Source: Tubulanus polymorphus
Lineage: Eukaryota; Nemertea; Palaeonemertea; Tubulaniformes; Tubulanidae
Direction of reading: 5' to 3'
NCBI RefSeq assembly: GCF_964204645.1
Contig: NC_134035.1
Coordinates: forward strand, 11,885,951 to 11,949,950
Length of the DNA: 64,000 nucleotides
The notes beneath the pieces were generated by a model that was not told the origin of the DNA, searched no databases, and was given only the letters and a program-made list of their open reading frames with translations. Below are positions 18,289 through 63,948 of the stretch, one piece after another. Each line of letters starts with the position of its first letter. Position 1 is the stretch's first letter. Made by a program: the position numbers and the translations under genes.

Positions 18289-18405
18289 GTCACTCGTTTA
18301 ATGTGGAATGTGGTCGCTATTTCATTTCAACTCGCCGTCAGCCTCCGCCGCCGACACAGGACGTTTCTGAAAATAATCAATCGCGTAGAAATGTAAACGT
18401 TTTCA

Positions 18406-19746: not shown

Positions 19747-19749
19747 TTA

Positions 19750-20331
19750 TTAACCAGGCCAACACTAGGGTAACTACGTTTATTCACCAGGCCAACACTA
19801 GGGTTACTACGTTTATTCACCAGGCCAACACTAGGGTTACTACGTTTATTCACCAGGCCAGCACTAGGGTAACTACGTTTATTCACCAGGCCAACACTAG
19901 GGTTACTACGTTTATTCACCAGGCCAACACTAGGGTAACTACGTTTATTCACCAGGCCAACACTAGGGTAACTACGTTTATTCACCAGGTCAACACTAGG
20001 GTTACTACGTTTATTCACCAGGCCAACACTAGGGTTACTACGTTTATTCACCAGGCCAACACTAGGGTTACTACGTTTATTCACAAGGTCAACACTAGGG
20101 TTACTACGTTTATTCACAAGGTCAACACTAGGGTTACTACGTTTATTCACCAGGCCAACACTAGGGTAACTACGTTTATTCACCAGGCCAACACTAGGGT
20201 AACTACGTTTATTCACCAGGCCAACACTAGGGTTACTACGTTTATTCACCAGGCCAACACTAGGGTTACTACGTTTATTCACAAGGTCAACACTAGGGTT
20301 ACTACGTTTATTCACCAGGCCAACACTAGAT
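19750..20331. repeat. 33-bp minisatellite, about 18 copies
   Basis: Unit approximately caccaggccaacactagggt plus aactacgtttatt, with a few variant positions (gtaact/gttact, ccaggc/caaggt). Because 33 is a multiple of three and no frame has a stop, it stays open on both strands (HQANTRVTTFI and NKRSNPSVGLV). I see no start context or splice signals to make either a real protein. Confidence 0.95.
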
Positions 20332-24940: not shown

Positions 24941-25870
24941 TTTGGAAATAACTATATTACACGGTTGAAGATAATTTTACAATATTTGGTCTTTTTTTAT
25001 GTAACTAGTCCGAAAGTTTACAACGTTTAATAATTTTGTCTAACTTCAATTTTTTTGGTCGTTTTCACCGTTTAAATAGTCGAAGCACATATTAAGTGAC
25101 TGATTGGGGTTAACTTTTTTTCTGCCTTATTTAATACATCAAGATTTTGGAAATAACTATATATTACAATATTTGGTCTTTTTTTCATATAACTAGTCCG
25201 AAAGTTTACAAGGTTGAATAATTTTATCTATTTTTTTTCTGCCTAATTTAATACATCGAGATTTTGGAAATAACTATATTTTACAATATTTGGTCTTTTT
25301 TTCATGTAACTAGTCCGAAAGTTTACAAGGTTGAATAATTTTATCTATTTTTTTCTGGCTTATTTAATACATCGAGATTTTGGAAATAACTATATTTTAC
25401 AATATTTGGTCTTTTTCATGTAACTAGTCCGAAAGTTTACAAGGTTGAATAATTTTATCTATTTTTTTCTGCCTAATTTAAAACATCGAGATTTTGGAAA
25501 TAACTATATTTTACAATATTTGGTCTTTTTTTCATGTAACTAGTCCGAAAGTTTACAAGGTTAAATAATTTTATCTATTTTTTTCTGCCTAATTTAAAAC
25601 ATCGAGATTTTGGAAATAACTATATTTTACAATATTTGGTCTTTTTTTCATGTAACTAGTCCGAAAGTTTACAAGGTTGAATAATTTTATCTATTTTTTT
25701 CTGCCTAATTTAAAACATCGAGATTTTGGAAATAACTATATTTTACAATATTTGGTCTTTTTTTCATGTAACTAGTCCGAAAGTTTACAAGGTGGGAGAA
25801 TTTTGTCTAACTTTAATTTTTTTTGTCGTTTTCACCGTTTAAATTTGTCTAATTTTTCAAAGTTTATTGT
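24941..25870. repeat. About 116-bp tandem array
   Basis: The anchor ttttggaaataactata recurs at 25145, 25262, 25378, 25492, 25608 and 25724 (spacing 117, 116, 114, 116, 116) with an earlier partial copy at 24940. Units share acaatatttggtctttttt, gtaactagtccgaaagttta and caaggttgaataattttatc. Six near-identical core units are followed by a degenerate edge. Confidence 0.95.
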
Positions 25871-30974: not shown

Positions 30975-32143
30975 TCAGCAGTCAGAGTACAAAGGATTTT
31001 CTATCGACGTTGGACCAGTTTTATCAGTAGTCTGAAAAAAGAAGGAACACTGATATGATTAAACTGAATAGTTTTATGTAGTTTTAACAAAATTCCGATG
31101 ATTGAATTATTCTAGACTGGATCTGCGACATAAATCAGGGGGCAGTTGTTCAACAGTTGGTTAGAGAATGGACTCTAACACTCGTTGAAAGTCGACTGAC
31201 TAGAGTTAAATGATGGACAGATACTTTTGTTAGAATTCAATTTCAATTGTCAGTATGTCATCATTCATTATCCACCGGTTAACTCTCAGCAACTTTTAAG
31301 GAACTGACCCCTTTATGTTTCATACTGAAATGAAATTCATCTTCATTCCGAAGAGAGGAAATTCTTAGTTTTTAATGATGCAGAACGAAAGCTACTATCT
31401 CCTACGTACCGTGATTGGTCCTGGTTCTGAAGATTCGCCACCAAACATTGTTGCATCTAATTCCGACATTGAAAACTGAAATACGAGAAATGAAAACGAT
31501 TTCAATTAAGTAACGCATCGTAACGATGTAATTATAGAAGCAATAAAGCATTTAAGACTAAACTGTTCCCTAAAGACTCTGCATGTCACTTGAATCTATC
31601 GCATTGAAATAAATAATCAAATACTGAACTAATTATGACTCTCACTAAAATCAACTACTTCAATTATAACAAGATCCGATATTAACACATGAAACTAGAT
31701 GCTTTTATCATGAGCAAAAATATTTTGGACGTCACCCTTTACTGAATGGTTTGTTCACAATGCGTTTACCAGATTTCAATACTTACATCATTTAACTGCA
31801 TGTCGTACGCTGGATTCTCTACTCCAACTCCCATCCTCGAATTCACAACTAGCCTGATTAATAAAGAGAGAAAAACCGAATGAGCTTTTAATACAAATCG
31901 AACCCCCCAATGACATGGCTGGCAACGAGCCTGCTGTAACATCTGAGGCAAACAGAGTCTATTGCATATTGCTTTTTAATCGAAATTCCAATTTAAATCA
32001 ATGGGAAGATTATCAATGATGAATTACTCACTCTCTGGTCACTGCTGTGTTGCGGCGTTTCACGTAATAAGAAGCCAGAACTATCAGTAACACAACTAAC
32101 ATCAAAGCTGCTAGAACACTAATCACTGGAACCAACGCTTTCG
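30975..32143 (-). CDS. MALRD1-like gene, exons 45-48: transmembrane helix and ENPxY cytoplasmic tail
   Basis: Exons 32032-32143, 31787-31853, 31410-31475 and 30975-31031, joined in consistent phase and ending in TGA at 30975-30977. Exon 45 encodes a hydrophobic run starting [13 protein letters not shown], followed by the stop-transfer YYVKRR, so the tail is cytoplasmic. The tail of about 65 residues contains ENPAYD in exon 46 and ENPLYSDC as its very end in exon 48. Both are NPxY motifs, which in LDL-receptor relatives bind PTB-domain adaptors and drive clathrin uptake. Lengths of 67, 66 and 57 bases make each tail exon a separate cassette, and exons 46 and 47 both end in phase 0, so skipping of exon 47 would keep frame. 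Confidence 0.82.
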
Positions 32144-35100
32144 CTGAAACGCAGAAACAAAATAAAATCATAATATATCATAGAAATAATATAAGATTCT
32201 CTTCTCAGCGTTTGAGGTAAAAAATTTCATTCTAGATTCAAAGAGACTTGGATATAAGCTGATGATTTTTGGAGCATGTTCAATCTAAAGAAAGATCTAA
32301 TGGACTCCGTTATTAGTTAAAATTTAACTTTTACGAAGAACCAAACCTTACTCAGCTGTGGAACTACAGTAAAAGTCCTTCATAACGCCACCATTTGGAC
32401 TGATGAAATTAAGAAGAATGGTATTTTTCGTGGAATTTGAGTAAATTTCTTCTCTGAAATATGTTTGCGTCAGGTGGGCCGGCCAGCGGCATTAAAAAGG
32501 ATGGCGTTATAACGAACTTTGACTGTTGCGCAATATGTAGAACTTACATGCTCCATTCTGTGTGCTGGGAGCTGAGGTGCCCTCAGTAGCGAATGCACAT
32601 CTGTATGTCGTACAGTTACATAGGAATTTCGAAGCAAATCCTTCATCGGCCAAACAGCTTTCTCCATTCACACAGAAATCTTTAGGACACTCTGAAACGA
32701 TTAAACAAAAACATTATATTTCACCATCCATTATAACTACTTAAGCGATGAAACATTTTTCCGACTGTTTTCCTACCGTTGCTGGAGCAGAGTTTTTCGT
32801 CTTGTCTATTGTCACAATCGGGATGGCCGTCACATTTCGGAACGCAAGAATCGGTCTTTCTGCAGTAGTACAGCTGCGGTGGGCAGAGTTTCACTAAAAT
32901 GATAATGACAGTTGTCAGTCAGACGTGGTACAAGATCAAACTTGTATCACTAGAACTACGAGGGATTCATTTTCGGTCTCTACTTACTGCATCCAAATTC
33001 ATCATCACCATTCGGACAGTCGATGACCCCATCACATGAATATATACCGGGAATACACATGCCTCCGACGCACATAAATTCACTTGGATCAGCGCAATTT
33101 TGAGGCGCGATTGTTGCTCCCTGAATGAGGAAAATAAATGTTTGAAAATTCTCTTCACCGTAACCAGTAATTTCTCATAGCGTTTTGGATACAGTAGACT
33201 TTGCCCGAGTCGGATCCAATCAGAAATAACTGTTCAACTCAGATATTCGTTAAAATATTTTTGATACTATGTACAAGAGCACAGATCCAGAAGGGGTGTT
33301 TCCGGTGCTAAATTTCCTTTGTATTGTTCATTTCCAGTTTTTTAACGCTGCATTTCAAAGTACATATTAAATTTGAAGATGATCAAGCAGTGCCTAGTTA
33401 TGTTCAGAATACAGGGAAACTTTACTACATGGAATCTACTGTAATTGCTATTTACCTGTTTTGGATCAGTAGTCGTTAACGGCGGTCGTGTCGATTTGCA
33501 GTTGAGTTCGTCGAAACCATCGGGACAATCGACAGTTCCATCGCATTTAAACGAGTTCGGGTAACATTGATTACGCGGTTTACAGTAGAAATGATCGGCG
33601 TAACACATTTCATCAATATCTGTAACGAATAAACAAAGCTGATATCGTATTCTCGCATCAAAGCGCATACGGTATACTGGCCGTCAGTTAGGCTGAAAAA
33701 ATTGATACTTTTTTTTTCATTTCTGCCAAGCTTTAAAGTTGACCCAGCCAACCGCCTATCTACCCTGTACATTACTATTTTCTAAAATCATGATCAAGTT
33801 AACAATAATAACAGACCTGGAAACTATGGAAATGAACTAATTACAAATTCTTTACAAATTTCACTTGGTTGATTAGAAGAAACAAGGTATCATTTCAGTT
33901 TAGCCTTAGGCAACTTAAGTCTCGGATGACTTCATTAATAGCCTTGCGATTTCTTTTTCTCCTTCAACTTGCTGAGCGATGATACTCATCGCAATATTTG
34001 CCAATTCGAGATTTCGTTTTCAATCTTATGGAAGAATGAAGCTTAAGAACCATTTACCAGCCACCAGAATTTGGACCCGAACTTGATCTATGGGACGCTT
34101 ACCGATGGCTTAAACCAGCCGGCAATTGAACTAATGTAACGACTGATGGCCTATATGGCGCTAATGTGAACAACAATTGATAATGATCTCGATGAATAAA
34201 TTCTATACCTGTCAAACACGATTTAGTGAATGAAGCGATGTCAATAGCGATGTTCGATTGGGCTCCGTTACCGCGAATTGCTCTGAATACGAGTTTAAAA
34301 TCTTGCGTCTGATGTAACAGAATATTTGCATTTTTCCACTGGTTTCCTTGATTGCCGCGTATGAACAGTAACGGCGTTTCCAATTCAGTCTTATCATCTT
34401 TAGCAGTCTTGGCAACGACCTGATTGTATAATACATACATATCATTCATTAAAGCAAAGTTTCGATTTCATAGAAAATATAATATCAATCTGCGGCCTAT
34501 TCAGACATTCACCATGATTGTAGCGTTAGAAGTCGATTTTCAAAAAAAGTTCTGAACACTTGTTAAGAATGATGATAATGTATCGAATGTCTATATGGCA
34601 TACAGGCTCCAGGCAATTGACTCACCTCAATTGATCCCATATTATCCGTACTGTAAAGAGCATCATCTGCTGCCCACATATGATACCAAAATCGCAAGTA
34701 ACACATCTTCATATTACCGCGCAATGGAGGAGTTTGAATTTCTGCCACGGCTCCGACATCGGCATTTTGAGCGTCGATGACCAGGAATTGAGAACCTGAA
34801 AAAATACGCAACAATAATGACAATGAAAAATTTCTTCATTATTTATTGTTTGTTTGTTTTTGCTTTTACGTCGCCCGGATCTTGGTTTCTCATGACTAAC
34901 CCAATCGGATTAATCATTTAACCTCACAACGGGACCACAGCCTTTGAAGTGTTGCCAACAGGCATTACATCAACGAACCTGGTTTGCCTTCTTTTCCTTG
35001 TGTAGGCCCGGTTTCCTTGGATAGCGGCTTGCTAGCGACTTGCCACTTGAAGCCACTGTGTTCGTCTTGGATCCATGATGGACACATTCCATTTTCAAAG

Positions 35101-38100
35101 TCGCAATAACCGCGAATTGCTTTATCTTCAGAAGTGAAATCATACAAGTTCGGTTAATTTGCAATCACGCACAGATTTTCCAAAAAATGTATTTTTGAAT
35201 TGAAACTCGCAGTTTAACTTACAGCTTTCACAATTTTTCTGAGATTGATCCGATCGATCGGTGCACCTAGATTGTCCACCATCGCAAACGTATTTTCTAT
35301 CTTTACACCCTTTACCATCATCGCAAGCAAATTGATTTCGACTACACGTTCCGTTCCCTGAAATCGTTCGAATTCATTTTATTTAAAAACATTATCTTTT
35401 GTTCCAGTTGCGGGTCGTTTAAAGTGTTTCTAGAGTTATCACCGGTAAGTGAAAACTGCCCCCTCGTTTTAGCAATAGATTCCAACTTCGAACAAAGAAA
35501 TATCTGTGAATATACATTCAAAATCAAGATCCAGCACTCTATGGATTTTTACAGGGTGGCTACGTTCTGCCAATTTAGAAATTCCCTAAGTTTTCCCTGA
35601 TTTTTTTCTAGATTCTTCTGATTCCCATGTATTTACCAGGGATTCTTCCGATTCCCATGTATTTACCAGGGATTCTTCTGATTCCCATGTATTTACCAGG
35701 GATTCTTACGATTCCCATGTATTTACCAGGGATTCTTCCGATTCCCATGTATTTACCAGGGATTCTTACGATTCCCATGTATTTACCAGGGATTCTTACG
35801 ATTCCCATGTATTTACCAGGGATTCTTACGATTCCCATGTATTTACCAGGGATTCTTCTGATTCCCATGTATTTACCAGGGATTCTTCTGATTCCCATGT
35901 ATTCACCAGGGTTTCCAAGTTAGTATCCACCCTTGAAAACTAACTTTCAACAGGTTTTTTAACTAATCGTTGATTTGAGAATCCATCGACGTGTAATCTA
36001 GTTTACATCCACCGATGAAAGGGACTATAGTTACCTGTGTGTTGACAATCACTGAAGACGATATTATCGACAGCTATATCACCCAGATAACTACTGCTGC
36101 GCGAACCTTCGATCATAATCGTGAATTCGTTCCTCGACCCGATCTTTACGCTTCCCCGTTGCCACTTATAACTTCGGAATCCGCTCCGTTGCCAGATTTG
36201 CTTGTACGCTTTATCAGCAGACGTCTTCGAGTAAACGGTAAGATTTCCGACCCTTGACGACCATCGGTTGTACATGTGATAGGAAAACGACATCGTACAC
36301 AGCGGCGCCGAATCATACAACAAACGACTGACTATACGAGCTTTGTGGCCCTGTCTAACACCGGCATTTCGCACTTTCAAATAAGCATAGTAGCCTACAA
36401 CAAATTCATACAAGAATTACCTTTTGATTTACTGTATGGTCTATATACTCTTATTCCACAGGATCCAGTTCCACAGTTTGAGTTTGTTGAAATGAGTTTA
36501 TTTCCAAGAATTTGAGTGGGTGGGGACTACGTTTGCTCACGTAATCAGGATCCAATTCCACAGTTTTGAGTTGGAGTTGAATCAGTTAATTTCCAAGAAT
36601 TTGAGCGGGTGGGGACTACGTTTGCTCACGTAATCAGGATCCACTTCCACAGTTTTGAGTTGGAGTTGTATCAGTTAATTTCCAAGAATTTGAGCGGGTG
36701 GGGACTACGTTTGCTCACGTAATCAGGAGCCAGTTCCAGTCGTTAAGATTAGTTAATTTGTGATGAGTTAACTCTTGAGTTTTAAATCAAATCTCAGAAC
36801 TGTGATCTAGTTAACTCTAAGACACTACTTAAACTTGTGTAAATGAATTCAGCTTCAAAATCTTGAGGCAAAGTGTTTTGCGTGTACGAATTTACCTTTT
36901 CTACTGCCATGTTCATCGGCAGATGGACCGGCGCCGTAATCTATGCCTCTCTTTCTTCCCCATGCGAAATCTGCAATGACGGAATTATTCCAACCGCACA
37001 TTCCATTTTCGAAATCACAATCCAAACCTGTCATAAGAAATAGATAAATATTGAACCAGTTATCATTAGGAAAACATCAGGAAAACAACCAAGGCTCGAT
37101 TGATGCTATTCTAGAGATTCTCGGGATACGAAATCCTCCATTCTCAGTATCATCCCGCATGAAAGTTAGCTATTCCAGTTTGCCTTTCAATGAGTCAAGA
37201 AAGAACTCGATTAAAAATTTTCCGGCGGTGAAATCAGTAACTCTTGTACAGTGTTTTCAGTAAGAAATCAACAAGCCATGTCCCTTTGAAAAACAGGAAG
37301 GTCCCATAATATGGTACGGTCCCTGAAACGATAGCTGGTTTGTAGAAAAAGATAGGTTCTTTACAAACAACAGACGGGTCTGGGACCTGGGACCTGGCTC
37401 TTATTGAAAACGTTGTTTGTATCCTGTCGGGATAATTTCATAACAATTTTTACCATGCCACCAAAGAATCTAGATAACCTCGAGATACCGGGATACTGGA
37501 AAAATCGAACCCCGCCATGAAATAAAGACGTACCGCAGTTTTCTTCGTCGCTGCCATCGTCGCAATTAGCGATGAAATTACAGCGTTCAGTTGTACTGTA
37601 ACATTGCGTAGTGTTCGCACACTGTATGAACCCGACGCCGCACGGAGTGACTGGAGGAATAACCGTCTGATTGCTGCCTGGCAACGCAACTGAAATAGAA
37701 ATCATACATACACATCAGCGAATTTCAAAACCATTACGTCGTACTACAACTACTAACATTACTTTAAAGCCACTTAAGAATCACAAATGAAACAAATTCA
37801 TCCTTGAAAATAGAATATATATTATGATTGATTTCGTTGAGTCACTTCAGCCTCATCAGGTATAACGTATGAAATAAACTATGTACTGAAGGACAAGGTT
37901 CTTTTTATGCCATTCTGTACATAGTTTATTTCATACATTATGTGACTCCGCGAAATCAAATATGCTCTAATTTACTATTTTTAAGGATGAGTTTTGTTTT
38001 AGTAGTGATTTTGTTGTGGCCAATCTATCATTCAACTCTACCAAAGTCTAACATTGCTCTTTGTATACTACATGATATGAAGATATGTCTTAATCTACTT

Positions 38101-41100
38101 TTCGAAGGCATCCCCTTCGATTGGTACAGCCTTCAGGCTCGGGTATGTCTCAACTATGTAGGACTGTTGGTATAAATCTACATATATGCATACTGTTGTT
38201 TTGATAAATACTGGTTAAATCATTATTATTATCATTACCATCTACACTAAATCTTCTTATATGCATTGAGCAGATTTTGCACAAACACATTTAAAAAAAA
38301 AAATCACTTCTTAAGATTTTTCACATATTGTGAAAGCGCAGAACTTACTAGCTTTTCATAACTTACTTTGAGATTCGGCGCATTCTGGGGTAAATGTGAC
38401 ATCATCAATAGCGATGTTTCCTCTCTTACCACTCCCGACTAGCCCTTCAATAACCACCTATAGAGTATAAATAAAGCATTACATCATTTTCAACCAATCA
38501 GACGATACTTCTCATCTTGAAATTGTTTTACTTAAAGTTTAACAAACCTCAAAATCTTCGCTACCGTTTGGAGTGAGTTCTAACTCGGCGCGAGACCAAT
38601 AATCTCCGTATACGTTACTGTTGAAGTCCTTGATTACCGACAGTTTTTTATCTTTGTATGAAAAACGCTTCGATATTCGTAGAACATTCTCGTCATCTCC
38701 GTACATGTGAAACCAGAATCGCAGCTATAATTACAACAAATACGACCGTTATAGTGTAGTCACTAGATCACAGTGAAGGGAAGCAACTAACAACTACGAT
38801 ATCCTGCACATCAGAGAATTAATATCACAGCGTGATGAACACGTTGATCATTTTCATCCTAACAATTGCCTTTTTTTTCATAAAAAATATCAGGATTTTT
38901 TACATGATTTTTCACATATGCTTTTCAGGGCTGGCAACCTCTGAAAAGTGCCAACCAAGTAACAAATTGAGTTTTTTCAGTAACATCAAATTGAAACATG
39001 AAAGAAAATGTTGAAATTAATCAGTAATCAACAGTAACATCTTTCATATGTCTACGCATCAAACAAATCAAATCATTTTTTCTTGTTATAAAAGAGTACC
39101 GGTAACTGAAAATCAGTAACAGTTGACAGCTCTGCATTTTATGCGTCAGCGTACAATAACCGAAGTAGATTACAGACACCCATTTTTCACATTGTATCAC
39201 TTTTTTCAATCTGACCCCTTTCATACGGTCCCTTAGACCTTTATCATAAGAGTAAAGCCTAATGCTCACATTTTGAGTCCTACATTACTCATAAAACTAA
39301 TTCAAACATGGTCCATAGATTGTACTATTAGCAGTACCTACATTTTGATGAAATCGAAGTTAATCCCTTATCTTTTAACAACATTTCCGGTTAGAACTCT
39401 GCAGGCAACATGTCTTACCTTGCATCCAGTTTTTGAACCAACTATCACAAATGATTTCAGCCTGGCGTTTGTTCCCGCTTTCCGAATTGTTTGTATGTGC
39501 ATGTAACTTCCTGAAATGAGAAGAATGCAGTGACGCAATCCTCGAAATTCTTTATGTAGAGAATAGAGTTCGGCTATGAATACAATAACGAGCCAAGCTT
39601 TAATTTCAAAGTTCATAATAGTTCGGTTGAATGCCTGAAAATGATTGATTTACCGGTTTGAGTTTTAGTTGTATGATCAACACTCGGTCCCGAGAGCCAG
39701 GAATTTTGTTTACTGAGCTGCCATGAGAAGTCACCCGTTCGATCATTGTTCAAATACTGACAACCCCATGCTTCCTCAAAGTCGCATCGTTTGTAATTCG
39801 CGTCACAATATACCTGGAATATTACCACAATAATCATATTACTCTTTCAGTGCATCTACACCGCAGTGCGGTGTTTGAATCAGTGATGGACTTTGTTAGT
39901 ACATCGCATTGTGGTGAATTGATGTAATCGGTGATTTAATTGGTGTTGGACTTTGCTAGTACATCGCATTGCGGTGTATCAACGTTTTTATCCCTATTGA
40001 AAGATGGTAGCACCTGTCACACATAGTGAATTATGAGTAACATTTAATACACCGCGCCGTGGTGTAGACGCACTTTAGCGGTATGGCAATTATTCAACAC
40101 AGTTGTGGTGGAATTTTCAGAAATTTTCAAATTATCTCCAGGACTTTTGGGTATTGATTAGTCAACACTGAAAGGGATTACTCTTGTCATAATTATGATA
40201 AACAATTGAATGAATGTAAAACATTTGATTGAAACCTACGTCATTTTCATCTGAACCATCGAGACAGTGTCGAGCGAAGTCACATCGTAGATTTGACGGT
40301 ATACAACTCTGACGATCATCGCATTTAAAGTCATTAATAGTATTACACGAGGTATGCGGCTGACAATTGAGGAACTTTATGTCGTCAATTGTGATATCAC
40401 CTGTAAGATAATTTCATTGATTCCTTAATAATGATAATAATAATAGTAATATACATTTTCTTATAAAGTGCAGTTATAATAATTTAACCATCGGGCTATA
40501 CACTCTATAATGAAGATCCAGCACCGGGTTCAGAACTGTAGAACTGGATCCGGAACCGGGTTCAGAACTGTAGAACTGGATCCAGAACCGGGTTCAGAAC
40601 TGTAGAACTGGATCCAGAACCGGGTTCAGAACTGTAGAACTGGATCCAGAACCGGGTTCAGAACTGTAGAACTGAATCCAGAACTGCAGAACTGAATCCA
40701 AAACTTTAGAACTGATCCAGAACTGTAGAACTGGATCCAGAACTGCAGAACTGAATTCAGAACAGTAGAAATGGATCCAGAACTGTAGAACTGATCCAGA
40801 ACTGTAGAACTGGATCCAGAACTGAAGAACTGATCCAGAACTGTAGAACTGGATCCAGAACTGCAGAACTGAATTCAGAACAGTAGAAATGGATCCAGAA
40901 CTCTAGAACTGATCCAGAACTGTAGAACTGGATCCAGAACTGAAGAACTGATCCAGAACTGCAGAACTGAATCCAAAACTGTAGAACTGGATCCAGAACT
41001 GCAGAACTGAATCCAGAACTGCAGAACTGAATCCAAAACTGTAGAACTGAATCCAGAACTGTAGAACTGAATCCAGAACTCTAGAACTGATCCAGAACTG

Positions 41101-56100: not shown

Positions 56101-59100
56101 GTTACGAATCTTTCATGTAGCGCTCAAATTTGTGAACATTTTAATATTATGAATTTCACTGTCAAGTATGCATGATTTTGCAGTTTATCGAATAGGTCGA
56201 TTAGTAATCTCGAGTAAGAAAGCGCTCTTTTTGAAAACTTACGCTGCGCAGGACATGGGCCGACATTTGACGAAAGATCATCTAAAGCGATGTCACCTTC
56301 CCAACCGTCGCTGACAATACCTTCCAGACCGAGCTGAAAAAAAAAACGCAATTCATATTAGACAAAAGATACATCAAAACATCTATGCAGAATCTTGACA
56401 CTAATCAACAGATACATACGCTCGTAATTTTCTTGTTGGTCAGATAAATTTGGCCATATTTCCATTCATCTCCCTGGTTACCTTCTTTCTGCCATATTGC
56501 TTTCGAATTTTTGTAGTCGGCTGAAATTTCATGAAGAAACAACATCTTCATCGTGAAGCTTTGTCGGTTTTCTCCACAAAAACATTTGGCATATTTGAAA
56601 CGTTCTCATAAACTTGACCAAAAGTTAACTTGAAATCGAATGACTTTACCTGTCTCATACGCGTGAACGTTGAGTCTGTATATGTGTGATCCGTACATAT
56701 GATACCAAAACTTGAAGCATAAACCTTGATCAGCAATCGTAACGGGGGAACTGATCAATCGAGCTGTAGCACCCTTCTGTTGACCAGACGCTTCGATATA
56801 TACATAATAACCTATATACAAAATACAGAACCACGTGTAAAATAAAGCAGTAGTTTTCTACATGCACAGAGCTTAAGATATCTAATGAATTGACACGTTA
56901 ATCAGGTTAACTCATCCTCGCTTGCCAGGGGTCCAGTATCACTCCCGAACTCGCTTCCACCAGCCCCCTGGCCTCACGAAGCGTGATTTCATTACTGTTG
57001 CGCATGACGTCATATATCGATTTGCGAAATACTTCCATGTTCGGTAAAACGTTCGCTGATTGGTCCATTTAACGGGAAAACCAACAGAAGTCTACTGTCG
57101 GTTTGTTACAAGCGCTGTGATTGGTACGACCGGATTCTGGTCGGCTAGTAACGACTCCAACGACTCGTGAGGTCAAGGGGTTCGGGGAACAGCTTTAGCG
57201 TAGTGGGTTCGAATCCCTTGACGGGTGAAGATGAGGTTAACTAGGACTATAACAGCCAAAAGAAGTAATTGGCTTGAATTTTTCAATCAGTTGCGTAATG
57301 TACGTTATGTTAGAAACAATCAGCTAAGACTGTAGACTGATCGAATGACACGACTGATCCTGAACGTATCTTACCTGTGGCTGTTTGAGTAGTGTGATCA
57401 CCGGAGGGTCCTGTATGCAACGAGCCCGTGCTATTGCTTTCAATCGTCCATTGGAAGGCCGTATTTTGATCGTGTTTCCAATTGCAAAGACTCGCCTTTT
57501 CGAAGTCGCAATCAAGAACAGACGGACCTGAAATATACCCCACAAAACATCTTGATACTAGTAATGCAACCATTTACTATTCCAGGATCCGGTTCTGCAG
57601 TTCTGAGTAAACTAATTCACGATGACAATGAGCTGATATTCAGAGTTAACTCACAACTGTTGAACTGGATCAAGGACCACAGCAGCAGGCGGAAATGATT
57701 TGATAGGATATCTATCTAACAGTAGTAATAGTTTAATTTTTTTAACAATGGACATATCGTGACAGATTCTGTTCTCCCACATGTCTACTGTTCTTGAAAT
57801 GAAATCAAGCTTTTCGATTTATCTTGGATTTTTAAGGGCACCTGTAACCCGGACATCACCATTATTTAGTAACAGTAATTACCAAAAGTAGGACGAGGAG
57901 TGATGACAGTTGTCGATGTTGTCGTTTGACTCGCGCAGCTTCCAACAGCTATTGATATATCATCTAAAGCTATATCACCGTAGAATGTTTTTCCAATTTC
58001 GGCTTCAAAAACCAACTGAGAAAAAGAGAAACCACTTTGTTTATCAAAACTGCTTTTAAAATCAACATTCACGTGTGTCATTCAGCCACGACTGACTTAT
58101 GAATTGAATAGGTAAAATCTTTAAAATTCAGGTTACATATTTACCTGGTAGTACGTGGTGGATCTTAAATCAACTGTTCCTTCATGCCACAAACTTCCTT
58201 GATCGCCATTCAATGTCCAGACAATTACGGATTTAGTTTGATTTACCGCCCAAACATTCAGCGTTCCAATACCTGAAATTTACAGAACATTATTGACTCA
58301 ATAACCATCGATGATATAATCTAGATCCAGTGCTACAGTTATAATTAAAGATTGAAAGTGAACTATTTCTGAATCAGAGTTTACTCTAACTCATAACTAT
58401 GAAATTGACACTTGATCAATGCTACAAATTCAAACACGACGATCTTATCGAAAAGATGAATTACCTGAGCCGTACATGTGGTACCAAAACCGGGCACAAG
58501 AAACTTTGGTGCCCGGTAAGAATTCGCTGTATAACCAGGCTTTTTCTCCCTGTTTACGAGTGCTTGCTTCGACATATACGTAAAAACCTACAACAGATCA
58601 TCAATATTTCAGTTTTCAAATCAACGCTGAACCAAGAAAGAAATCTTGCATTTTCTCAAAATTCTTAGTCACATCTCTAAAGGAGATAAAATAAAATCGC
58701 ACACTCAGAATAAATAGGAGGCTCTAGTATTCCTGAAGATGATCATCAGGGGCCAGTTGCACAGTCGTGACTGGAAGTCCAAAAGTGGTCTTAAATTTTA
58801 AGACTGGTCTTAAGTTGTTAGATTAACCATAGAACTTAGTTGGTCTTAGACTGATGCCTCACACCTAGACTTAGTCTCACACCTGATGATGATCTCTAGG
58901 GTGAGATCGAAACATCGTGTTCTTATATTTGAGATTGTTTCAATGAATAAATTCTCGATTTTAGATTTCTTTTAATTTGTAAATAGAGGGGTTTTATCTT
59001 ATGGTCTTAGACTGGTCTTAAGTCTAAGCCATGACTATGCAACCGGGGCCTGGATATAGTCGAAACAGATTTATTCTTAGTGTGGGATTTCAAATCATCT

Positions 59101-62100
59101 TTCGACGCGGACATGTTGCTCAATGGTTACCTAAAGAAGACCCAGTCGTGTGGTCACCGTTTGGACCGGTTCCCGCTGATGGTGTTACTCCCGCTGTGCG
59201 TAACCAGTCGAAATCACCGCCCATATTCGCGTATCCGCACCAACCTTTTTCGAAATCGCACCAACCGGCACTCGGACATTTACCCGGAACTAGCTGGATA
59301 TCGTCGAGAGCGATATCGCCGCGGAAACCATATCCACGCTTTCCTTCAAATATCACCTAAATCGGACAAACAAAATTTACAATTTTACACGAGCGCGGCT
59401 ACCAACCCCCAAAAACTGCCATTAGTAACAAATTGAATTTTTCAGTCACATTTCTTCTTTAAGATATCAAAGAAAATATTCCAAATTAATCAGTTATAAA
59501 TTTCAAGACCCTCAGTAACATCTTTCACATTTCAGTACACACCTAACAATCAATCAGTATATTTCAGGACAAAATCAGGGTGGCCACTTTCCGCCCATTT
59601 ACAAACTGCCCCAAGTTTCCCTGACTTTTCTGAATTTCTACACAAATTCCCCGAGGGAATCAGGGAAGATATCTAGGTTTAGAATGTTATGATTTATTTA
59701 TTTTTCGTGAATCGCGAATTGAAAAAAACATTTTCTAGATTCTTCCGATTCCGATTCTTCCGAGTTTTCCAGGTTTTTCAGGTCAGCGACTGCTCTAAAA
59801 ATAGCTTTTTAAAATACTGGAAATTGCTCGCTCACCTGGAATGAATCCCCCTTATCGATCGTAGCTTGCCCGTAAAACCAGTACGCTCCGTTGTTTCCGT
59901 ACGCTTGCCAAATATTCTTCAAACTCGCGTCCGATTTACGTCGCAATTTCACGGTCAACGAACCCGTATCGCGTCCGTACATGTGATAGTAAAACTGTAA
60001 ACATTCGGAATCAGAGTTCGCCGCGTAGTATTTACTTTCCAACCACGCGAAATCGCCGTATTTACTCGGCGCCGACGTCTCTATGTAAACGTAGTAACCG
60101 TACTGAGTACTGGTCGTGTGATCGACGGCTGGACCCGTTTTCGATGAATCCGTTCCGTTACGTCCGCGTAACCACTCGAAACCGGCCGTGTCCGAATCAC
60201 TTTTCGTGTTGAAATCACAGAATCCGGCTTCGAAGTTGCAAATTCCTGAAAAGATAAGTAGGTTTAATGAAGTGAGATCCCACAAATAGGAGTCGGAAAT
60301 TCGATGCTATGTTTTGGTTGCTGCCTAACAGCCATCAGCAGGTAGAAGCAGATTATTTGTAGTAAATAAGTAGATGAATGATTCTACAATGACCCATAAC
60401 ACGAAGAGAACCCATAATCTCCATAAAATGATAGGTTAAAAGAACTTCAGCGCTGCACTGGAAACCCACAAATAGGAGTTTTGATGCTAAATTTTGGTTG
60501 TTGCCTACCAGCCATCAGCAGGTAGCAGATTATTTGTCGTAAATAAGTAGATTCTACTGTCCCATAACACGAAGAGAACCCATAATCTCCAAAAAATGAT
60601 AGGTTACAAGAACTTCAGCGCTGCACTAGAAACCAAACCTTAGTCTTCAGGACCCAGTTCCCGAGTTCCAGAGTCAAGATTTCATTCAAGAGTTAACACA
60701 TTGAGAATGAACTGATTTGTACAACTGGTTCCAGGTGCTGGTTTAATACATGATCAGTCTTTACTTTAACCCGAGGTGATATGAACTGAATTCAGGGTCA
60801 AATTAATTCAACGAATCTTAGTTATTCTCGTATTCATCATAGAAAGAGAAGTATTTAGAGCAAGAAGAGTTATACAGTAGACTGCTCCTAACTCGAATCA
60901 AGTCATTTTTGTTCATGTCAAGCGATATTCATGGTTCCCACAGTTATATGAATTCAAAATTCCCAAGTTTTTCCCAAGTATTTCAAGGGTGATTTTTCAA
61001 TTTTCCCAAATGGGAATGAACAGATATCATCATGCTACAGCCAACATTTTAGCGGTGACTGGTTGATAAATGTGATTTTCAAGGGAAATTGCGGAAGAAA
61101 GTTGCCCTTGACAAATACAATATGTGAAATATAATGAATTTCCAAAATATTTCCCTGATTTGAGGAAAAATTTTAAATTTCCAAATATTTCCAAACCGGG
61201 AATTATCATTTCAAAATTCCCAAGTTATTCCCAATTTCCATGTTCTGTGGGAACCATGGGAATTTATTCGTATATTCTGTTGAAATGGTTTTAAGATTTG
61301 TGTTCGGAGAGTCTACTGTTTATCGGCTGTGCAAGCATGAAGCAAAAACGACTCACGTGAAGGTGGACATTCTCCATCTGTTACTGAAATATCGTCTAAT
61401 GCGATATCGCCATAAACAGGTTCACCAACAACTCCTTCAAATACAATCTGCAAAATGAAAACACTTCAGTATGTCTCATCGAGTCAACCTTAAACATTAT
61501 CTTCAGTTTGTTTAGTTTCTTGTCGGTTCATTACCTTCCACGCGTCTGCACTTGTGAACGACGTTTGTCCTTTCCTCCAAACGTTCGCCTGGTTCTGAAT
61601 TTGCGTCCAAATCAACGACTGATTTTTCGTATGCGACAAATAAACGTTCAACGTTTCGACGTTCGCGCCGTACATGTGATACCAGAACGTCAGACATTTC
61701 GAACCGGTGAACTTTCGCTGAAGGCCGGAGAATATTCTCGCTTCGTCGCCCTTTTGTTGAGGGTAAGACGTTTCGATATAAACGTAAAATCCTGAAAGTA
61801 ATCAAACATTTTGGTAAGAGATAATAGAAATTATTGTGCTCTTAAGGAGAAGGATCCTCCAGGATATTTGCCTCCGAGGTAGATTGTAATCCAAGGCAAT
61901 TAGCTTGCCATACCTTTTCCAGTTGTATGATCGAATCCAGGTCCGGTATGTTTGGAATTGGTCGACGTGTTCGTACGCGACCAACTGAAATCCCCTGATC
62001 TATCGTGGAACCAATCGCACATACCATTTTCAAATGTACAATTCATACCTAGAAAAAAAAAATTGACGCAAAAATTTAATAATCATTCATTGGAAGTGGG

Positions 62101-63948
62101 GGATAAATGTTTGTTCAAAGTATTCATTATCGAACTGGGGTGATATTTTCTGAAGCTGGGTAGCATAGTCAGTTGCAGCACTTGCTACCAACTGGGCCTT
62201 AGATAACGAACGAGTTAGCCAGTTTTAGCAGGAAATTTGGTCCTAGATAATTACCAACGACCCCCACCCCGAGACGTGCATGGATCAAACATGAAGCCGA
62301 AAATAGAACTCACTCTTATCTGAATAGATCTTAGTCGGGTCACAATCAATGAACTCAACATTATCGATAGCGATGTCACTGCCAGTGGCGAAGAAGCTTT
62401 TACCAGCTTTAGCCGTGAATATCATCTAGAAATCAAAAATATTCCTTTAACATCGATATCAATGTAAATAATGTTAAAACGAAATGCAACGCTTTTTAAA
62501 AAAATGTTGGACCTTATCTTGAATGTATGTATGTATATACCTTAAACGGAGCATTTTGTTGTCCAATATCGACGGTTTTTACGTTCCAGCGTTTTCCCTG
62601 ACTTCCACGATATTTCAAAACGGTCGACGGAATTGAATTGCCGACTTTAATCTGTAGTGATAGTTCACCTGTAATATATACACAACATTAGATATCTTTT
62701 GCAATCGATCCTCGAATAAAGAGTTGACTAATAATACGTACTTTGCGTGCCACCATACATGAAATAGAAGAATTTCACTTGACAACTCGGAGCTGTTTTG
62801 TACAAAGTTGGTGTTTCCATCATAGCTTGCGTATAATAAGTACCGGTCGCCTTGTCGACCATCATGAAATTTCCTGAAAAAAGGACACATCGAGCTCGAT
62901 GACTATTTGTGACTCTATGATGATTTACACCCATTTTGAAATAAGGTTTGCTGCTGAACGCGAACCTGTTTTAGAAATTGAAGCGTCCGTCTGCGGTGCG
63001 TTACTGGTTACACCAGCTTTCACTAGCTCCCACTGGTAAACACCAGAACTAATATCCTTCCATCCGCACTGTCCATTTTCAAATGTACATTGACCTGCAT
63101 TAGAACACGATAACATACATTATCACTTTAAATTAGAAGTTTATATTTCAGAGGCCAGAACCGCTGATGAAAGAAACTCTGTCAACGCCAAGATTCAAAC
63201 GATAGATTGTGGATGGGTTGAATACATGACCAAGAAAGTTGATTTAAACCAATTCTGAAGACACTACGCCTAGCGTACATACCACAGTTCATCTCATCAG
63301 TATCGCACTGCGACTGGAAATCACACACTTGAGTTCGCGGAATACAAGATCCATCTCCGCACATGAAGTCCTGACCACAGGCACTGGGAGTTGTTAGCGG
63401 CATCGCCGTAGCATTGGGCAGCAGAACTGAAAATACAATTCAAATTACAAACGTTTGGGAAATTCAGTCAAAATTTCGATCATCAATTACAGCCTAAGAA
63501 AAAAAACCTAAAGACTTTCCTCGTATTCAATCATTAACTGATTTTGTAAAAAAAATGTTTGTAATACATGGTACATACCATTCATAGTAGAACATTCATC
63601 ACTGAATGTGATGTCGTCCAAAGCAAATCTTGTCTTTCTGAAATTACTGGAACTGTCACTGCCTCCTACGTCTGCTTCCAGCAATACCTGAACATACACA
63701 ATAGACATGCTGCAAATACATTATCCGACTTCTATTCGAAATTGTACTAGTAAAGATAAAGTATCAAATCTCACTTCGAAATTATCAACTTCCAGATTCA
63801 AAGGAACTTCCGCACGTTCGAAGAACGTTAGATCGTAACCGTCTGAATTAGATTTGGTCCATTTCTTCGTCAGTGCTCCACCGACTTCGTTTCTAGTATA
63901 TACGTTAATGCTTCCGGTATCACCGGCCATATAGTAGTAGAAACGCAG
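30975..63948 (-). CDS. MALRD1-like: Giant MAM/LDLa/EGF single-pass membrane protein (MALRD1/Diet1-like), 3' part, 48 exons
   Basis: A predicted very long type I surface protein; the N-terminus and any signal peptide lie beyond the right edge. I traced 48 exons, each bounded by AG and GT, with compatible phase at every junction. Together they give 16,041 bases (5,346 codons plus TGA). Domain order: partial MAM, LDLa, MAM x7, LDLa, MAM, LDLa, MAM, LDLa, MAM x7, LDLa, MAM, LDLa, MAM, LDLa, MAM, LDLa, MAM x2, LDLa, MAM, LDLa, MAM, LDLa, MAM, LDLa, MAM, LDLa, MAM, LDLa x3, EGF-like, transmembrane helix, tail. MAM repeats show CDFE, YYVYIE, FWYHMYG and GDIAIDD; LDLa repeats show CDF..DC.DGSDE..C. 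Vertebrate MALRD1 (Diet1), a MAM/LDLa/EGF/TM protein of gut epithelium, has the same plan but is roughly 2,100-2,200 residues. Ligand and role here are inferred only. Two adjacent genes joined by my chaining is possible, but no stop or TM segment interrupts the series. Confidence 0.85.
32548..44498 (-). CDS. MALRD1-like gene, exons 25-44 (small-exon C-proximal block: MAM23-27, LDLa10-16, EGF-like)
   Basis: Exons in transcript order: 44260-44498, 43287-43554, 42506-42655, 41885-42208, 40240-40400, 39654-39813, 39419-39510, 38548-38724, 38367-38457, 37534-37689, 36896-37027, 36035-36394, 35223-35357, 34979-35125, 34626-34795, 34209-34419, 33456-33619, 32988-33120, 32777-32893, 32548-32691. They encode the rest of MAM23, LDLa10 after a Thr/Pro linker, MAM24, LDLa11, MAM25, LDLa12, MAM26, LDLa13, MAM27, then LDLa14, 15 and 16, one exon each, and a six-cysteine EGF-like module (exon 44). 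MAM24 and MAM27 are divergent. LDLa13 (DRSDQ) and LDLa16 (DNRQDE) deviate from the DGSDE calcium-binding consensus, so their folding or calcium binding is doubtful. The window's largest intron (40401-41884) is mostly minisatellite. Confidence 0.85.
33691..33905. mobile_element. PIF/Harbinger-type MITE, copy 3 (diverged)
   Basis: Same termini (GGCTGAAAAAATTGATAC ... GGTATCATTTCAGTTTAGCC) with TTA at 33688-33690 and 33906-33908. The interior has lost most GACCCGGCCG words, so it is an older copy. It lies in the intron between exons 40 and 41 of the MALRD1-like gene. Confidence 0.8.
35552..35935. mobile_element. MITE-like element (CAGGGTGGCYAC ends) carrying an internal minisatellite
   Basis: Left end acagggtggctacgttctgc and right end gttagtatccaccctt are inverted. 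The body ttccctaagttttccctgat is shared with related copies at about 59577 (cagggtggccactttccgcc) and 42265-42450. The interior has been expanded into the 30-bp array at 35611-35910. In the intron between exons 36 and 37. Confidence 0.65.
35611..35910. repeat. 30-bp minisatellite, 10 copies
   Basis: Unit gattcttctgattcccatgt plus atttaccagg, ten exact-length copies with a variable position (ctg/ccg/acg). Open on both strands because 30 is a multiple of three; the frames are not genes. Confidence 0.98.
36461..36740. repeat. About 89-bp tandem repeat, 3 copies
   Basis: ggatccaNttccacagtttt starts at 36461, 36548, 36637 and, partially, at 36726. Units share gaatttgagcgggtggggac and tacgtttgctcacgtaatca. 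In the intron between exons 35 and 36. Confidence 0.9.
37826..37960. repeat. Intronic foldback hairpin
   Basis: gtatgaaataaactatgtac pairs exactly with gtacatagtttatttcatac, and gatttcgttgagtcac pairs with gtgactccgcgaaatc outside a 14-base insertion on the left arm. That insertion, read on the minus strand, adds CTGATGAGGC. In the intron between exons 33 and 34. Confidence 0.85.
38927..39135. mobile_element. MITE-like element, family CAGRGCTGNCAAC, copy 2
   Basis: Ends cagggctggcaacctctgaa and aacagttgacagctctg. Interior aaacatgaaagaaaatgttg, attaatcagtaatcaacag and acatctttcatatgtct. In the intron between exons 31 and 32. The terminal CAGGGCTGGCAA resembles hAT elements, but I see no clean 8-bp duplication. 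Confidence 0.65.
39850..40073. mobile_element. MITE-like element, family GTGCATCTACACCGC, copy 2
   Basis: Inverted ends gtgcatctacaccgcagtgc and cgcgccgtggtgtagacgca, with two further internal copies of acatcgcattg[tc]ggtg. In the intron between exons 29 and 30. Confidence 0.75.
40505..41836. repeat. 1.3-kb minisatellite of 19/20-bp units in the largest intron
   Basis: Mixed units gaactgtagaactgatcca (19) and gaactgtagaactgaatcca (20), preceded by about five 32-bp units with gaaccgggttca (40515-40680). Variants tctaga, tgcaga and tgaaga are interspersed. It nearly fills the 1,484-bp intron between exons 28 and 29 and stops about 49 bases from exon 28. The long minus frames through it (FWISSTVLD) are artefacts. 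Confidence 0.97.
42323..42427. mobile_element. Foldback MITE, family GGGCCCAGTTTCAC, copy 2 (nested)
   Basis: Ends GGGCCCAGTTTCACAAAAAG and CTTTTAGTGAAACTGGGCCC. Flanking ctgag occurs on both sides, an apparent 3-5 base duplication (ambiguous because the ends share bases). It sits inside a copy of the CAGGGTGGCCAC family (ttccctgag ... gagttttccaggttagtggccac). Confidence 0.75.
42860..42985. repeat. Intronic foldback hairpin (CTGANGA..GAAA family)
   Basis: Inverted arms: attgattcaacgtttcaact ... cgtcaggaatactg against cagtattcttgaagatgact ... gtcgaaatgtcgaattaat. In the intron between exons 26 and 27. Confidence 0.7.
43601..43835. mobile_element. MITE-like element, family CAGRGCTGNCAAC, copy 3
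   Basis: Ends cagggctgcccac and aacagttggcagctctg, interior as in copy 2 (attaatcagtaatcaacag). In the intron between exons 25 and 26. Confidence 0.65.
44102..44232. repeat. Intronic foldback hairpin, 54-bp near-perfect arms
   Basis: gtagaaagaatcccacaatg...gtacctttgagat pairs with its complement ending gtgggattctctctac; only about four of 54 positions differ. The loop carries tttattcaacgtttcacc. On the minus strand it begins about 27 bases after the exon 25 donor. Confidence 0.95.
44880..45085. repeat. Degraded inverted-repeat sequence
   Basis: Words such as agtcatggcttggacttaag, atagttctatagcc and cttaagaccaatctcaag are diverged complements of the GGCCAGTTGCACAG family, so this may be an old reversed copy. 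Confidence 0.4.
45139..48267 (-). CDS. MALRD1-like gene, giant exon 24 (MAM18 to MAM23, LDLa6-9)
   Basis: A 3,129-bp exon with acceptor at 48268 and donor at 45138. Domain positions (high to low): MAM18 remainder to 47900; LDLa6 47875-47762; MAM19 47746-47264; LDLa7 47194-47090; MAM20 47083-46598; LDLa8 46576-46469; MAM21 46450-45971; MAM22 45910-45449; LDLa9 45424-45317; MAM23 from 45301. MAM20 and MAM22 are atypical: their GDIAIDD strand reads GHYALDD and GTTAIDD, and both share a basic [12 protein letters not shown] / [12 protein letters not shown] strand. MAM23 lacks both N-terminal cysteines ([10 protein letters not shown] where others have [10 protein letters not shown]). It has the same CpG-rich codon use as exon 23. 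Confidence 0.93.
48809..54325 (-). CDS. MALRD1-like gene, giant exon 23 (MAM8 to MAM18, LDLa2-5)
   Basis: One 5,517-bp exon with acceptor at 54326 and donor at 48808. It begins with GYYVYIEAS of MAM8 and ends at NTG inside MAM18. Domain positions on the genome (high to low): MAM8 end 53994; LDLa2 53966-53883; MAM9 53873-53403; LDLa3 53375-53262; MAM10 53240-52764; LDLa4 52694-52578; MAM11 52571-52065; MAM12 52034-51573; MAM13 51557-51078; MAM14 51062-50580; MAM15 50510-50028; MAM16 50012-49545; MAM17 49529-49041; LDLa5 49004-48918; MAM18 from 48908. Thr/Pro linkers follow MAM10 and MAM14. The exon is rich in CpG-containing codons (tcg, acg, gcg, cga), so it also shows long open frames on the other strand, which I treat as shadows. 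Confidence 0.93.
54399..54537. mobile_element. Foldback element, family GGCCAGTTGCACAG, copy 1
   Basis: Ends ggccagttgcacagttgtga and gtgactatgcaaccggcc are inverted, as are the inner cttaagtc / gacttaag words. In the intron between exons 22 and 23. Confidence 0.8.
54877..63948 (-). CDS. MALRD1-like gene, exons 1-22 of the window (small-exon N-proximal block: MAM1 to start of MAM8)
   Basis: Exons in transcript order: 63775-63948, 63579-63687, 63283-63426, 62966-63094, 62742-62873, 62541-62668, 62314-62425, 61914-62048, 61535-61791, 61357-61447, 59836-60245, 59131-59356, 58465-58587, 58145-58272, 57883-58015, 57375-57527, 56650-56811, 56420-56520, 56243-56333, 55922-56062, 55471-55724, 54877-55105. 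The first two exons give the C-terminal half of MAM1; exon 3 is LDLa1, with a shortened calcium loop (QCDTDEMNC). MAM2 uses exons 4-7, MAM3 8-10, MAM4 11-12, MAM5 12-15, MAM6 16-19, MAM7 20-22, and MAM8 starts in exon 22. Introns recur at two sites within MAM: phase 1 just before the YYVYIE strand, and phase 0 just before the VIFEG strand. A Thr/Ser/Pro-rich linker follows MAM5. Codon use is more A/T-rich than in exons 23-24. Confidence 0.82.
55178..55300. mobile_element. Partial relative of the 9942-10279 element
   Basis: Shares ttttgtgccgtgg, gatgNcatcaggt and CCGAATCCCTGCCG with the right arm of that element, and caatctgattggcg with its arm interior. In the intron between exons 21 and 22. 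Confidence 0.55.
56911..57235. mobile_element. Palindromic element with tRNA-like ends, family CTCATCYTC, copy 2
   Basis: 325 bp, beginning CTCATCCTCG and ending AAGATGAG, flanked by direct GTTAA at 56906-56910 and 57236-57240. The B-box GGGTTCGAATCCC is near the right end. Lies in the intron between exons 16 and 17. The clean 5-bp duplication points to DNA-transposon-like insertion, although the ends look tRNA-derived. Confidence 0.8.
58749..59050. mobile_element. Foldback element, family GGCCAGTTGCACAG, copy 2, interrupted
   Basis: The same element as at 54399, split at about 58854-59000 by an unrelated insert; the halves resume exactly (tggtcttagactg | atggtcttagactggtctta). The insert carries CTGATGATGATCTCTAGGGT and GAGATCGAAAC. 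In the intron between exons 12 and 13. Confidence 0.8.
59392..59575. mobile_element. MITE-like element, family CAGRGCTGNCAAC, copy 4 (degraded)
   Basis: Interior words (taacaaattgaatttttcag, aaattaatcagtta, cagtaacatctttcac) match copies 2 and 3; the ends are eroded. In the intron between exons 11 and 12. Confidence 0.5.
60280..60640. repeat. Tandem duplication of about 185 bp
   Basis: cccacaaataggagt ... gccatcagcaggtag ... aacttcagcgctgcactgga (to about 60464) repeats with small indels to about 60640. In the intron between exons 10 and 11 (1,110 bp). Confidence 0.9.
60905..61260. repeat. Internally repetitive intron segment
   Basis: ggttcccaca ... gaattcaaaattcccaagtt ... recurs later as catttcaaaattcccaagtt ... 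gtgggaaccatggg, partly in inverted order. The unit is unclear. Confidence 0.45.

Follow-up and report, generated by a model that had tools for sequence, protein, structure and literature searches.

We identified an array of MAM and LDLa modules that extends over approximately 103 kb of the minus strand of contig C11 (C11:12,019,826-11,916,925), and the whole of this array very probably belongs to one gene. The spliced, hand-corrected gene model comprises 166 exons and 36,996 coding nucleotides and encodes 12,331 amino acids (1.373 MDa). Its predicted product would consist of a signal peptide, 67 MAM domains, three membrane-proximal LDLa modules, an EGF-like stretch, one transmembrane segment and a tail of 72 residues that carries two NPxY motifs. 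The first 39 MAM domains would follow one another directly or across short linkers, some of them Pro/Thr-rich, and the rest would be interleaved with 15 LDLa modules. The kind of protein is already known from the MAM/LDLa type I proteins MALRD1/Diet1, endotubin and coral MLRP1/2; the size and the block order are new.

The window, meaning the whole 64,000-nucleotide stretch of DNA that was analysed (C11:11,885,951-11,949,950), holds the 3′ 48 of the 166 exons and 16,041 of the 36,996 coding nucleotides (30975..63948, minus strand; first exon 63948-63775, last exon 31031-30975). To the right of the window edge, the gene continues to C11:12,019,826, as indicated by the gene model and by MAM profile matches past the edge. 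Positions marked ‘ext’ continue the window numbering rightward (C11 = 11,885,950 + ext). The genome assembly totals 267.8 Mb in 77 contigs, 12 of them chromosome-sized (32.1 to 11.5 Mb, from the lengths of contigs 1-18 and 75-77), and N bases are absent from the 184-kb stretch that contains the gene. The first-pass annotation of the window had described an in-frame chain of 48 exons and 16,041 coding bases whose 5′ end lay outside the window. Our separately built, hand-corrected model matches this chain, and a signal-peptide exon 1 was found 70 kb past the window edge.

The model was obtained with a custom-built gene finder that combines a codon model, a domain bonus and splice matrices. For the detailed model, the gene-break penalty was -1000, and exon 1 and the last exons, the transmembrane exon included, received a bonus after being read by eye. 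Five manual corrections were made: exon 123281-123174 was added, a minisatellite exon was removed, and splice sites were shifted in MAM38, MAM29 and MAM31, the MAM29 and MAM31 donors being swapped for higher-scoring ones. Raw gene-finder output in the window had 49 exons, from which the 216-nucleotide minisatellite exon was dropped on splice grounds; the agreement in exon count is partly non-blind, as this exon was removed with the earlier count of 48 already known. A 499-exon model from the initial gene-finder settings was overfitted and was discarded. Introns of the final model fall in phases 1, 0 and 2 in 113, 51 and 1 cases, respectively. In the model preceding the last two donor changes, donors were 164 GT and 1 GC, all 165 acceptors were AG, and introns measured 73-2,762 nucleotides (median 371).

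Two intronic minisatellites are open in several frames and form a trap for gene finders. The larger (40515..41834, units of 19, 39 and 58, and also 32, bp) reads open and lies in the MAM64 intron, between exons 42208-41885 and 40400-40240; we rejected it as coding sequence, as the two MAM64 exons on either side remain in phase when it is left out. The other (35611..35915, 30-bp units) is noncoding though open and lies in the intron between exons 36394-36035 and 35357-35223. Further minisatellites of the window have 33-bp units (19747-20329) and 116-bp units (25115-25809).

A MAM profile built from two large open frames matched in succession along the minus strand between ext 131,033 and 34,216. 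With a refined profile, trained on this gene, the minus strand of the 184-kb stretch had 167 matches scoring over 12 bits and the plus strand had none. Among the matches listed, every Pfam MAM match in this part of C11 is on the minus strand. None of the 67 MAM domains scores below 92 bits or aligns over fewer than 150 positions of a profile trained on these same domains. A profile of 13 MAM domains matches 18 distinct solved chains, which include an SR-C-like protein, MDGA1, enteropeptidase, neuropilins, meprins, and RPTP kappa and mu. Pairwise MAM identity averages 34% and reaches at most 55%, which argues that the array is neither a recent duplication nor a product of assembly.

LDLa modules number 18 in the protein, 16 of them in the window. 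MAM1-39 are without them; they occur ahead of MAM40, 41, 42, 49, 50, 51, 58, 59, 60, 61, 63, 64, 65, 66 and 67, and three more lie past MAM67. The longest linker between MAM domains is 66 residues, and the 288 residues past MAM67 are filled by the three LDLa modules, the EGF-like stretch, the transmembrane segment and the tail. The product also contains 57 N-glycosylation sequons and Pro/Thr-rich linkers.

The earlier count of at least 27 MAM and 16 LDLa modules in the window is borne out by the gene model, our own HMM and Pfam. Counting 26 starts and one domain cut by the edge, the window holds 27 MAM domains, and both of the families proposed for checking (Pfam accessions PF00629 and PF00057) gave matches among the window exons tested. 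At the right edge, 54877..63948 (minus strand) contains the exons from the 3′ part of MAM41 to the 5′ part of MAM48, mostly in a three-exon pattern, with one LDLa exon (63426-63283), the only LDLa in this segment. Next come two intronless exons with modules supported by Pfam matches: one of 5.5 kb (48809..54325, minus strand) with the remainder of MAM48, MAM49-57 whole, the start of MAM58 and four LDLa modules, and one of 3.1 kb (45139..48267, minus strand) with the remainder of MAM58, MAM59-62 whole, the start of MAM63 and another four. PF00629 matches ten stretches in the first and six in the second, and PF00057 matches four in each. The remainder of MAM63 and MAM64-67, with an LDLa module preceding each of MAM64-67, occupy 34209..44498 (minus strand, gene model). 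Six of six further single exons tested had an LDLa Pfam match, two of them scoring 23.8-23.9 bits, just under the cut-off of 24.1; the remaining 2 of the 16 LDLa modules in the window were called by our own HMM only.

The two large exons (5,517 and 3,129 nucleotides; 45139-54325, minus strand) are adjacent and hold 13 whole MAM domains (49-57 and 59-62) together with parts of MAM48, 58 and 63, while most other MAM domains have two or three introns each. GC3 is 0.64 in these exons versus 0.47 elsewhere. This arrangement suggests that dozens of introns were lost as one block in the MAM48-63 stretch, perhaps by cDNA recombination. The introns of MAM58 and MAM63, at unusual places, look like later gains.

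Both ends of the predicted product could be located. Exon 1 (ext 133,876-133,822) encodes MGMSVKVLILLAVHLASS, has a phase-1 donor with a score of 7.2 and is in phase with the first MAM exon. The transmembrane segment and the signal peptide, which were called by hydropathy and splice phase, are the top two hydrophobic stretches of the product. At the other end, three membrane-proximal LDLa exons (33619-33456, 33120-32988 and 32893-32777, minus strand) match PF00057, the last at 23.8 bits against the cut-off of 24.1. They are followed by an EGF-like exon (32548..32691, minus strand) with six spaced cysteines and without a Pfam match at E<=1, by the transmembrane exon (32032..32143, minus strand) and by three tail exons (31853-31787, 31475-31410 and 31031-30975, minus strand). 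The C-terminal order previously read from the window, an LDLa run, an EGF module, a transmembrane segment and a short tail, is seen in our model with an EGF-like exon, so called by cysteine spacing and not by Pfam, in the place of the EGF module. The 72-residue cytoplasmic tail starts within the transmembrane exon, and the tail exons hold NPAY (residue 12282) and NPLY (residue 12325). A TGA stop codon (30977-30975) is followed, nine bases on, by AATAAA (30965-30960). A search of the same genome with the tail matched only the giant gene's own exons.

Several observations bear on whether the array is one gene. When breaks were allowed at a penalty of -10, the optimal parse was one gene at exon penalties of -8, -10 and -12, with the gene ends overshot. 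A signal peptide in an intron had been named beforehand as a sign of separate genes; neither a second signal-peptide-like phase-1 first exon nor a second internal transmembrane exon turned up in a scan of 100 kb (ext 31,000-131,000). Signal-peptide-like phase-1 first exons other than exon 1 (hydropathy of at least 2.4 over ten residues, phase-1 donor above 4.5) numbered zero on the minus strand and zero on the plus strand. Transmembrane-like internal exons (hydropathy of at least 2.3 over 19 residues, acceptor and donor above 4) numbered one on the minus strand, the known exon, and zero on the plus strand. The scan covers phase-1 first exons and transmembrane exons flanked by both an acceptor and a donor; a first exon in another phase, or a transmembrane exon ending in a stop codon, would escape it.

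One junction departs from this picture. Between MAM24 and MAM25 (C11:11,976,189-11,975,164; ext 90239-89214, beyond the window), the plain join of exon 90323-90239 to the acceptor at 89354 creates a split TAA, and the frame is kept only via a 47-nucleotide exon (89530-89484) and an acceptor of ordinary score at 89373, with introns of 708 and 110 nucleotides. This junction could be spliced as modelled, carry a variant particular to the individual, be misassembled, or mark the actual end of a gene. Use of the stronger splice sites would give a possible soluble short form.

The stop codon from the canonical MAM24-MAM25 join is also the first of several points in favour of two or more tandem MALRD1-like genes joined in error, for example a secreted MAM1-24 protein and a downstream MAM/LDLa receptor, an alternative that we consider unlikely. 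The composition of the array shifts at MAM40, where the LDLa modules start, and one of three retraining rounds favoured a two-gene parse, with a split at 69.5-69.7 kb that falls within a MAM domain and that we judge to be an artefact. Against such a division, there is no second signal-peptide-like phase-1 first exon or second internal transmembrane exon in between, the introns at MAM24/25 measure 708 and 110 nucleotides, and the lag-9 similarity signal described below spans the whole array. A coral relative from A. digitifera offers precedent on both sides: it is described as initially annotated as two tandem models, and the pair as judged from a cDNA to be a single gene (PMC4890752).

The in-frame stop given by the stronger sites at MAM24/25 would also fit a decaying gene, or one with short splice forms only, so that the full-length product does not exist. 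We regard this as highly improbable: the remaining junctions of the 166-exon model are open and its single stop codon is at its end, four cysteines are kept in 59 of the 67 MAM domains, and GC is 0.48 in exons versus 0.35 in introns.

Within the single gene that we favour, MAM domains are related to one another at regular spacings. We compared the similarity of MAM domains at lags 1-40 with that in 20,000 shuffles of their order. Lag 9 was strongest (z 6.38), a value reached in none of the 20,000 shuffles, for which the top z was 4.81; lag 18 was next (z 3.84), followed by the weaker lags 6 and 15, and BLOSUM scoring on an earlier model gave the same lag pattern. The peak is at lag 6 in MAM1-18 (z 3.9) and at lag 9 in MAM19-63 (z 5.5), and MAM1-36 have signal at lags 3, 6, 9, 12, 15 and 18. 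Multiples of three without multiples of nine give a z of 4.7, a signal that comes entirely from MAM1-36 (z 6.5; MAM37-67, z -1.1).

The nine-domain block is clearest in MAM37-63, where all three pairs among blocks 37-45, 46-54 and 55-63 have their best match in register. By similarity it is unclear in MAM19-36, for which lag 6 (z 2.7) exceeds lag 9 (z 2.0), and the best matches among blocks 19-27, 28-36 and 37-45 are out of register. With the array divided into eight blocks (MAM1-6, 7-12 and 13-18, then nines up to MAM63), the best shift among the 28 pairs was zero in 7, three in 13 and another value in 8. A tree of the 67 MAM domains is poorly resolved, with 4 of 64 inner branches well supported. 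Mapped on this tree, classes modulo 9 require 38 changes versus 48.6 when shuffled, a value as low being found in 0 of 200 shuffles; individually, only 2 modulo 9 (0 of 500) and 4 modulo 9 (15 of 500) stand out of the nine classes.

Further sequence-based support for a block periodicity comes from the linkers, the LDLa positions and introns shared between domains. Pro/Thr-rich linkers precede MAM7, 13, 19, 28, 37, 46, 55 and 64 (the best class gives p 0.0007 modulo 9 and p 0.005 modulo 3, with seven moduli examined), and Pro/Thr richness is also found in several LDLa-bearing linkers and in the linker ahead of MAM62. LDLa modules recur at MAM40-42, 49-51 and 58-60, and additionally at 61, 63 and 64-67. 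An intron usually lies directly before the G-Y-Y motif. In ten MAM domains it lies 1-3 codons earlier and all ten are 1 modulo 3, compared with 5 of the 34 domains in which it is placed as usual (Fisher p 1.2e-6, leaving aside six MAM domains with other positions). Rare extra introns are common to MAM24/33/42, MAM36/45, MAM5/14 and MAM8/17, and 6 of 9 same-site pairs are spaced by a multiple of nine (p 2e-4); these sites were grouped by eye, and those of MAM5 and MAM14 are two alignment columns apart. The indicators are in partial conflict in the N-terminal region, where the first linkers are six-spaced and the shared introns nine-spaced. On the simplest reading, duplication of MAM blocks would have built the array up from a unit of three MAM domains, with a spacing of six or nine in the N-terminal region and clean copies of nine toward the C-terminus, in MAM37-63.

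Among the closest known proteins is MALRD1/Diet1, whose C-terminus has an EGF module and a transmembrane segment. The shared feature is MAM domains interleaved with LDLa modules, here in the MAM39-MAM67 region, and the likeness is one of module set; the giant protein differs in its 12,331 residues and 67 MAM domains, its LDLa-free first 39 MAM domains and its three- and nine-MAM periodicity. The MALRD1-like label of the first-pass annotation stands for the module set, the N-terminal 39 MAM domains being without interleaved LDLa modules. Mouse Diet1, a protein of the intestinal epithelium, is reported to have a mass of 236 kDa with nine MAM and nine LDLa modules (PMC8804323). The description as more than twice the length of vertebrate MALRD1 was right in direction and understated in degree, the product being approximately 5.8 times mouse Diet1 by mass.

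MAMDC4 measures approximately 1,100-1,200 residues. MAMDC4/endotubin (AEGP) shares with the giant protein a single-pass type I topology, a large ectodomain and a short tail; the giant protein is about ten times longer, and its tail has NPxY motifs. Endotubin is described as a single-pass endosomal protein whose 40-residue tail steers it to endosomes, apical ones in particular, and whose loss removes the apical endocytic complex (PMC11125477, PMC12746077). NPxY motifs, here NPAY and NPLY, are also shared with LDLR-type endocytic receptors. The giant protein has no room, judged by space, for a YWTD beta-propeller with EGF pairs (longest linker 66 residues), and we therefore do not file it in the LDLR family.

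Coral MLRP1 (B3EWZ5, 5,145 residues) and MLRP2 (B3EWZ6, 7,311 residues), both listed as fragments, likewise have very long MAM and LDLr repeats and Pro/Thr repeats (PMC4043741, Table 1). Because MLRP1 and MLRP2 reach these lengths, the 5,347 residues encoded in the window, earlier called unusual in length, lie in the known range; it is the whole protein that exceeds all those found. Among the published MAM proteins that the consulted parts of the open-licence literature describe, none is longer than 7,311 residues and no MAM super-repeat was found. The A. digitifera MAM/LDLr skeletal organic matrix protein is classed as transmembrane and has EGF, fibronectin and trefoil domains (PMC4890752); the linkers of the giant protein (at most 66 residues) are too short for the fibronectin domain.

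The host also differs from that of the coral proteins. On C6 (5318228-5634747), ten strong Antennapedia-homeodomain matches lie on one strand, in an order that we take to be Post-2, Lox4 and Lox2 types, Antp, Lox5, Scr, Dfd, Hox3, pb and lab. Genes of the Lox and Post-2 types are characteristic of lophotrochozoans, and the Hox-like set on C6 thus indicates a lophotrochozoan-type bilaterian host, not a cnidarian. Other MAM genes seem to be expanded in the same genome. Among the matches listed, further MAM exon clusters occur on C3 (21.0, 21.8 and 23.6-24.1 Mb) and C10 (0.65-0.70 Mb), and C3:23,760,874-23,769,504 holds two interleaved sets of like-scoring MAM matches, each with a spacing of approximately 2.1 kb. 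Contig 10 starts with the telomere repeat CCCTAA. Searches for COX1 and STING gave no matches, the STING result being uninformative as its controls were equally blank. In the left half of the window, where two open frames were tested, a 290-residue TIP41-family frame (Pfam accession PF04176, E 3e-64; 17428-18297, minus strand) lies approximately 12.7 kb downstream of the giant gene.

NPxY motifs act as PTB/clathrin-adaptor signals. By analogy with its relatives, we tentatively propose, with confidence a little short of even, that the giant protein may serve in surface capture and uptake. It would form a long rod with flexible Pro/Thr hinges on an epithelial surface, extracellular ligand or matrix would be captured by the MAM rod together with the LDLa modules next to the membrane, and uptake would proceed through NPxY adaptors of the Dab2/ARH/Numb type, as in an outsized relative of endotubin/MALRD1. 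The explanation as a whole, in which one gene encodes a giant type I protein acting as a surface-capture and uptake receptor, has in our estimate an even chance of being right.

A chiefly structural role is a serious possibility, albeit below even: the ectodomain of a matrix or adhesion protein might be shed into mucus, cuticle, shell or skeleton matrix, the tail serving for delivery. This role is equally well precedented because the coral relatives MLRP1/2 are reported as skeletal matrix proteins, with cleavage proposed for the membrane proteins of that matrix (PMC4043741). Octopus skin mucus is reported to contain MAM/LDLa class A peptides (PMC10138644), one MAM/LDLa gene is reported 2.01-fold up in the Exaiptasia pedal disc (PMC6626399), and the Pro/Thr-rich linkers and N-glycosylation sequons of the giant protein would also suit a matrix component. 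We consider surface capture and uptake somewhat likelier than a purely structural matrix role because the short tail carries two NPxY motifs and an LDLa cluster adjoins the membrane.

The super-repeats themselves raise a further idea, speculative and to our minds improbable, in which the 67-MAM ectodomain would be a length-defined extracellular ruler or tether that binds a periodic partner at periodic sites and is renewed by NPxY-dependent uptake. Nested three- and then nine-MAM super-repeats and Pro/Thr hinges would give a rod of perhaps a few hundred nanometres, a guessed length, and periodic partner binding would be modelled on titin super-repeats along the thick filament. The A-band of titin is likewise described as a giant chain with domain super-repeats (PMC7427331, PMC10665226), although titin is intracellular, built of Ig/FN3 domains and filament-bound, and the analogy is one of layout only.

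Automatic annotation may split 100-kb genes of this sort, since the coral relative is reported to have been split (PMC4890752). If transcribed whole, the gene would encode a product exceeding the longest MAM protein found in the parts of the literature consulted, the MLRP2 fragment, and would provide an extracellular case of domain super-repeats. Selection on block size would be open to testing; mouse Diet1, perhaps by coincidence, likewise has nine MAM domains. The role of long MAM arrays would, with a whole transcript, become testable.
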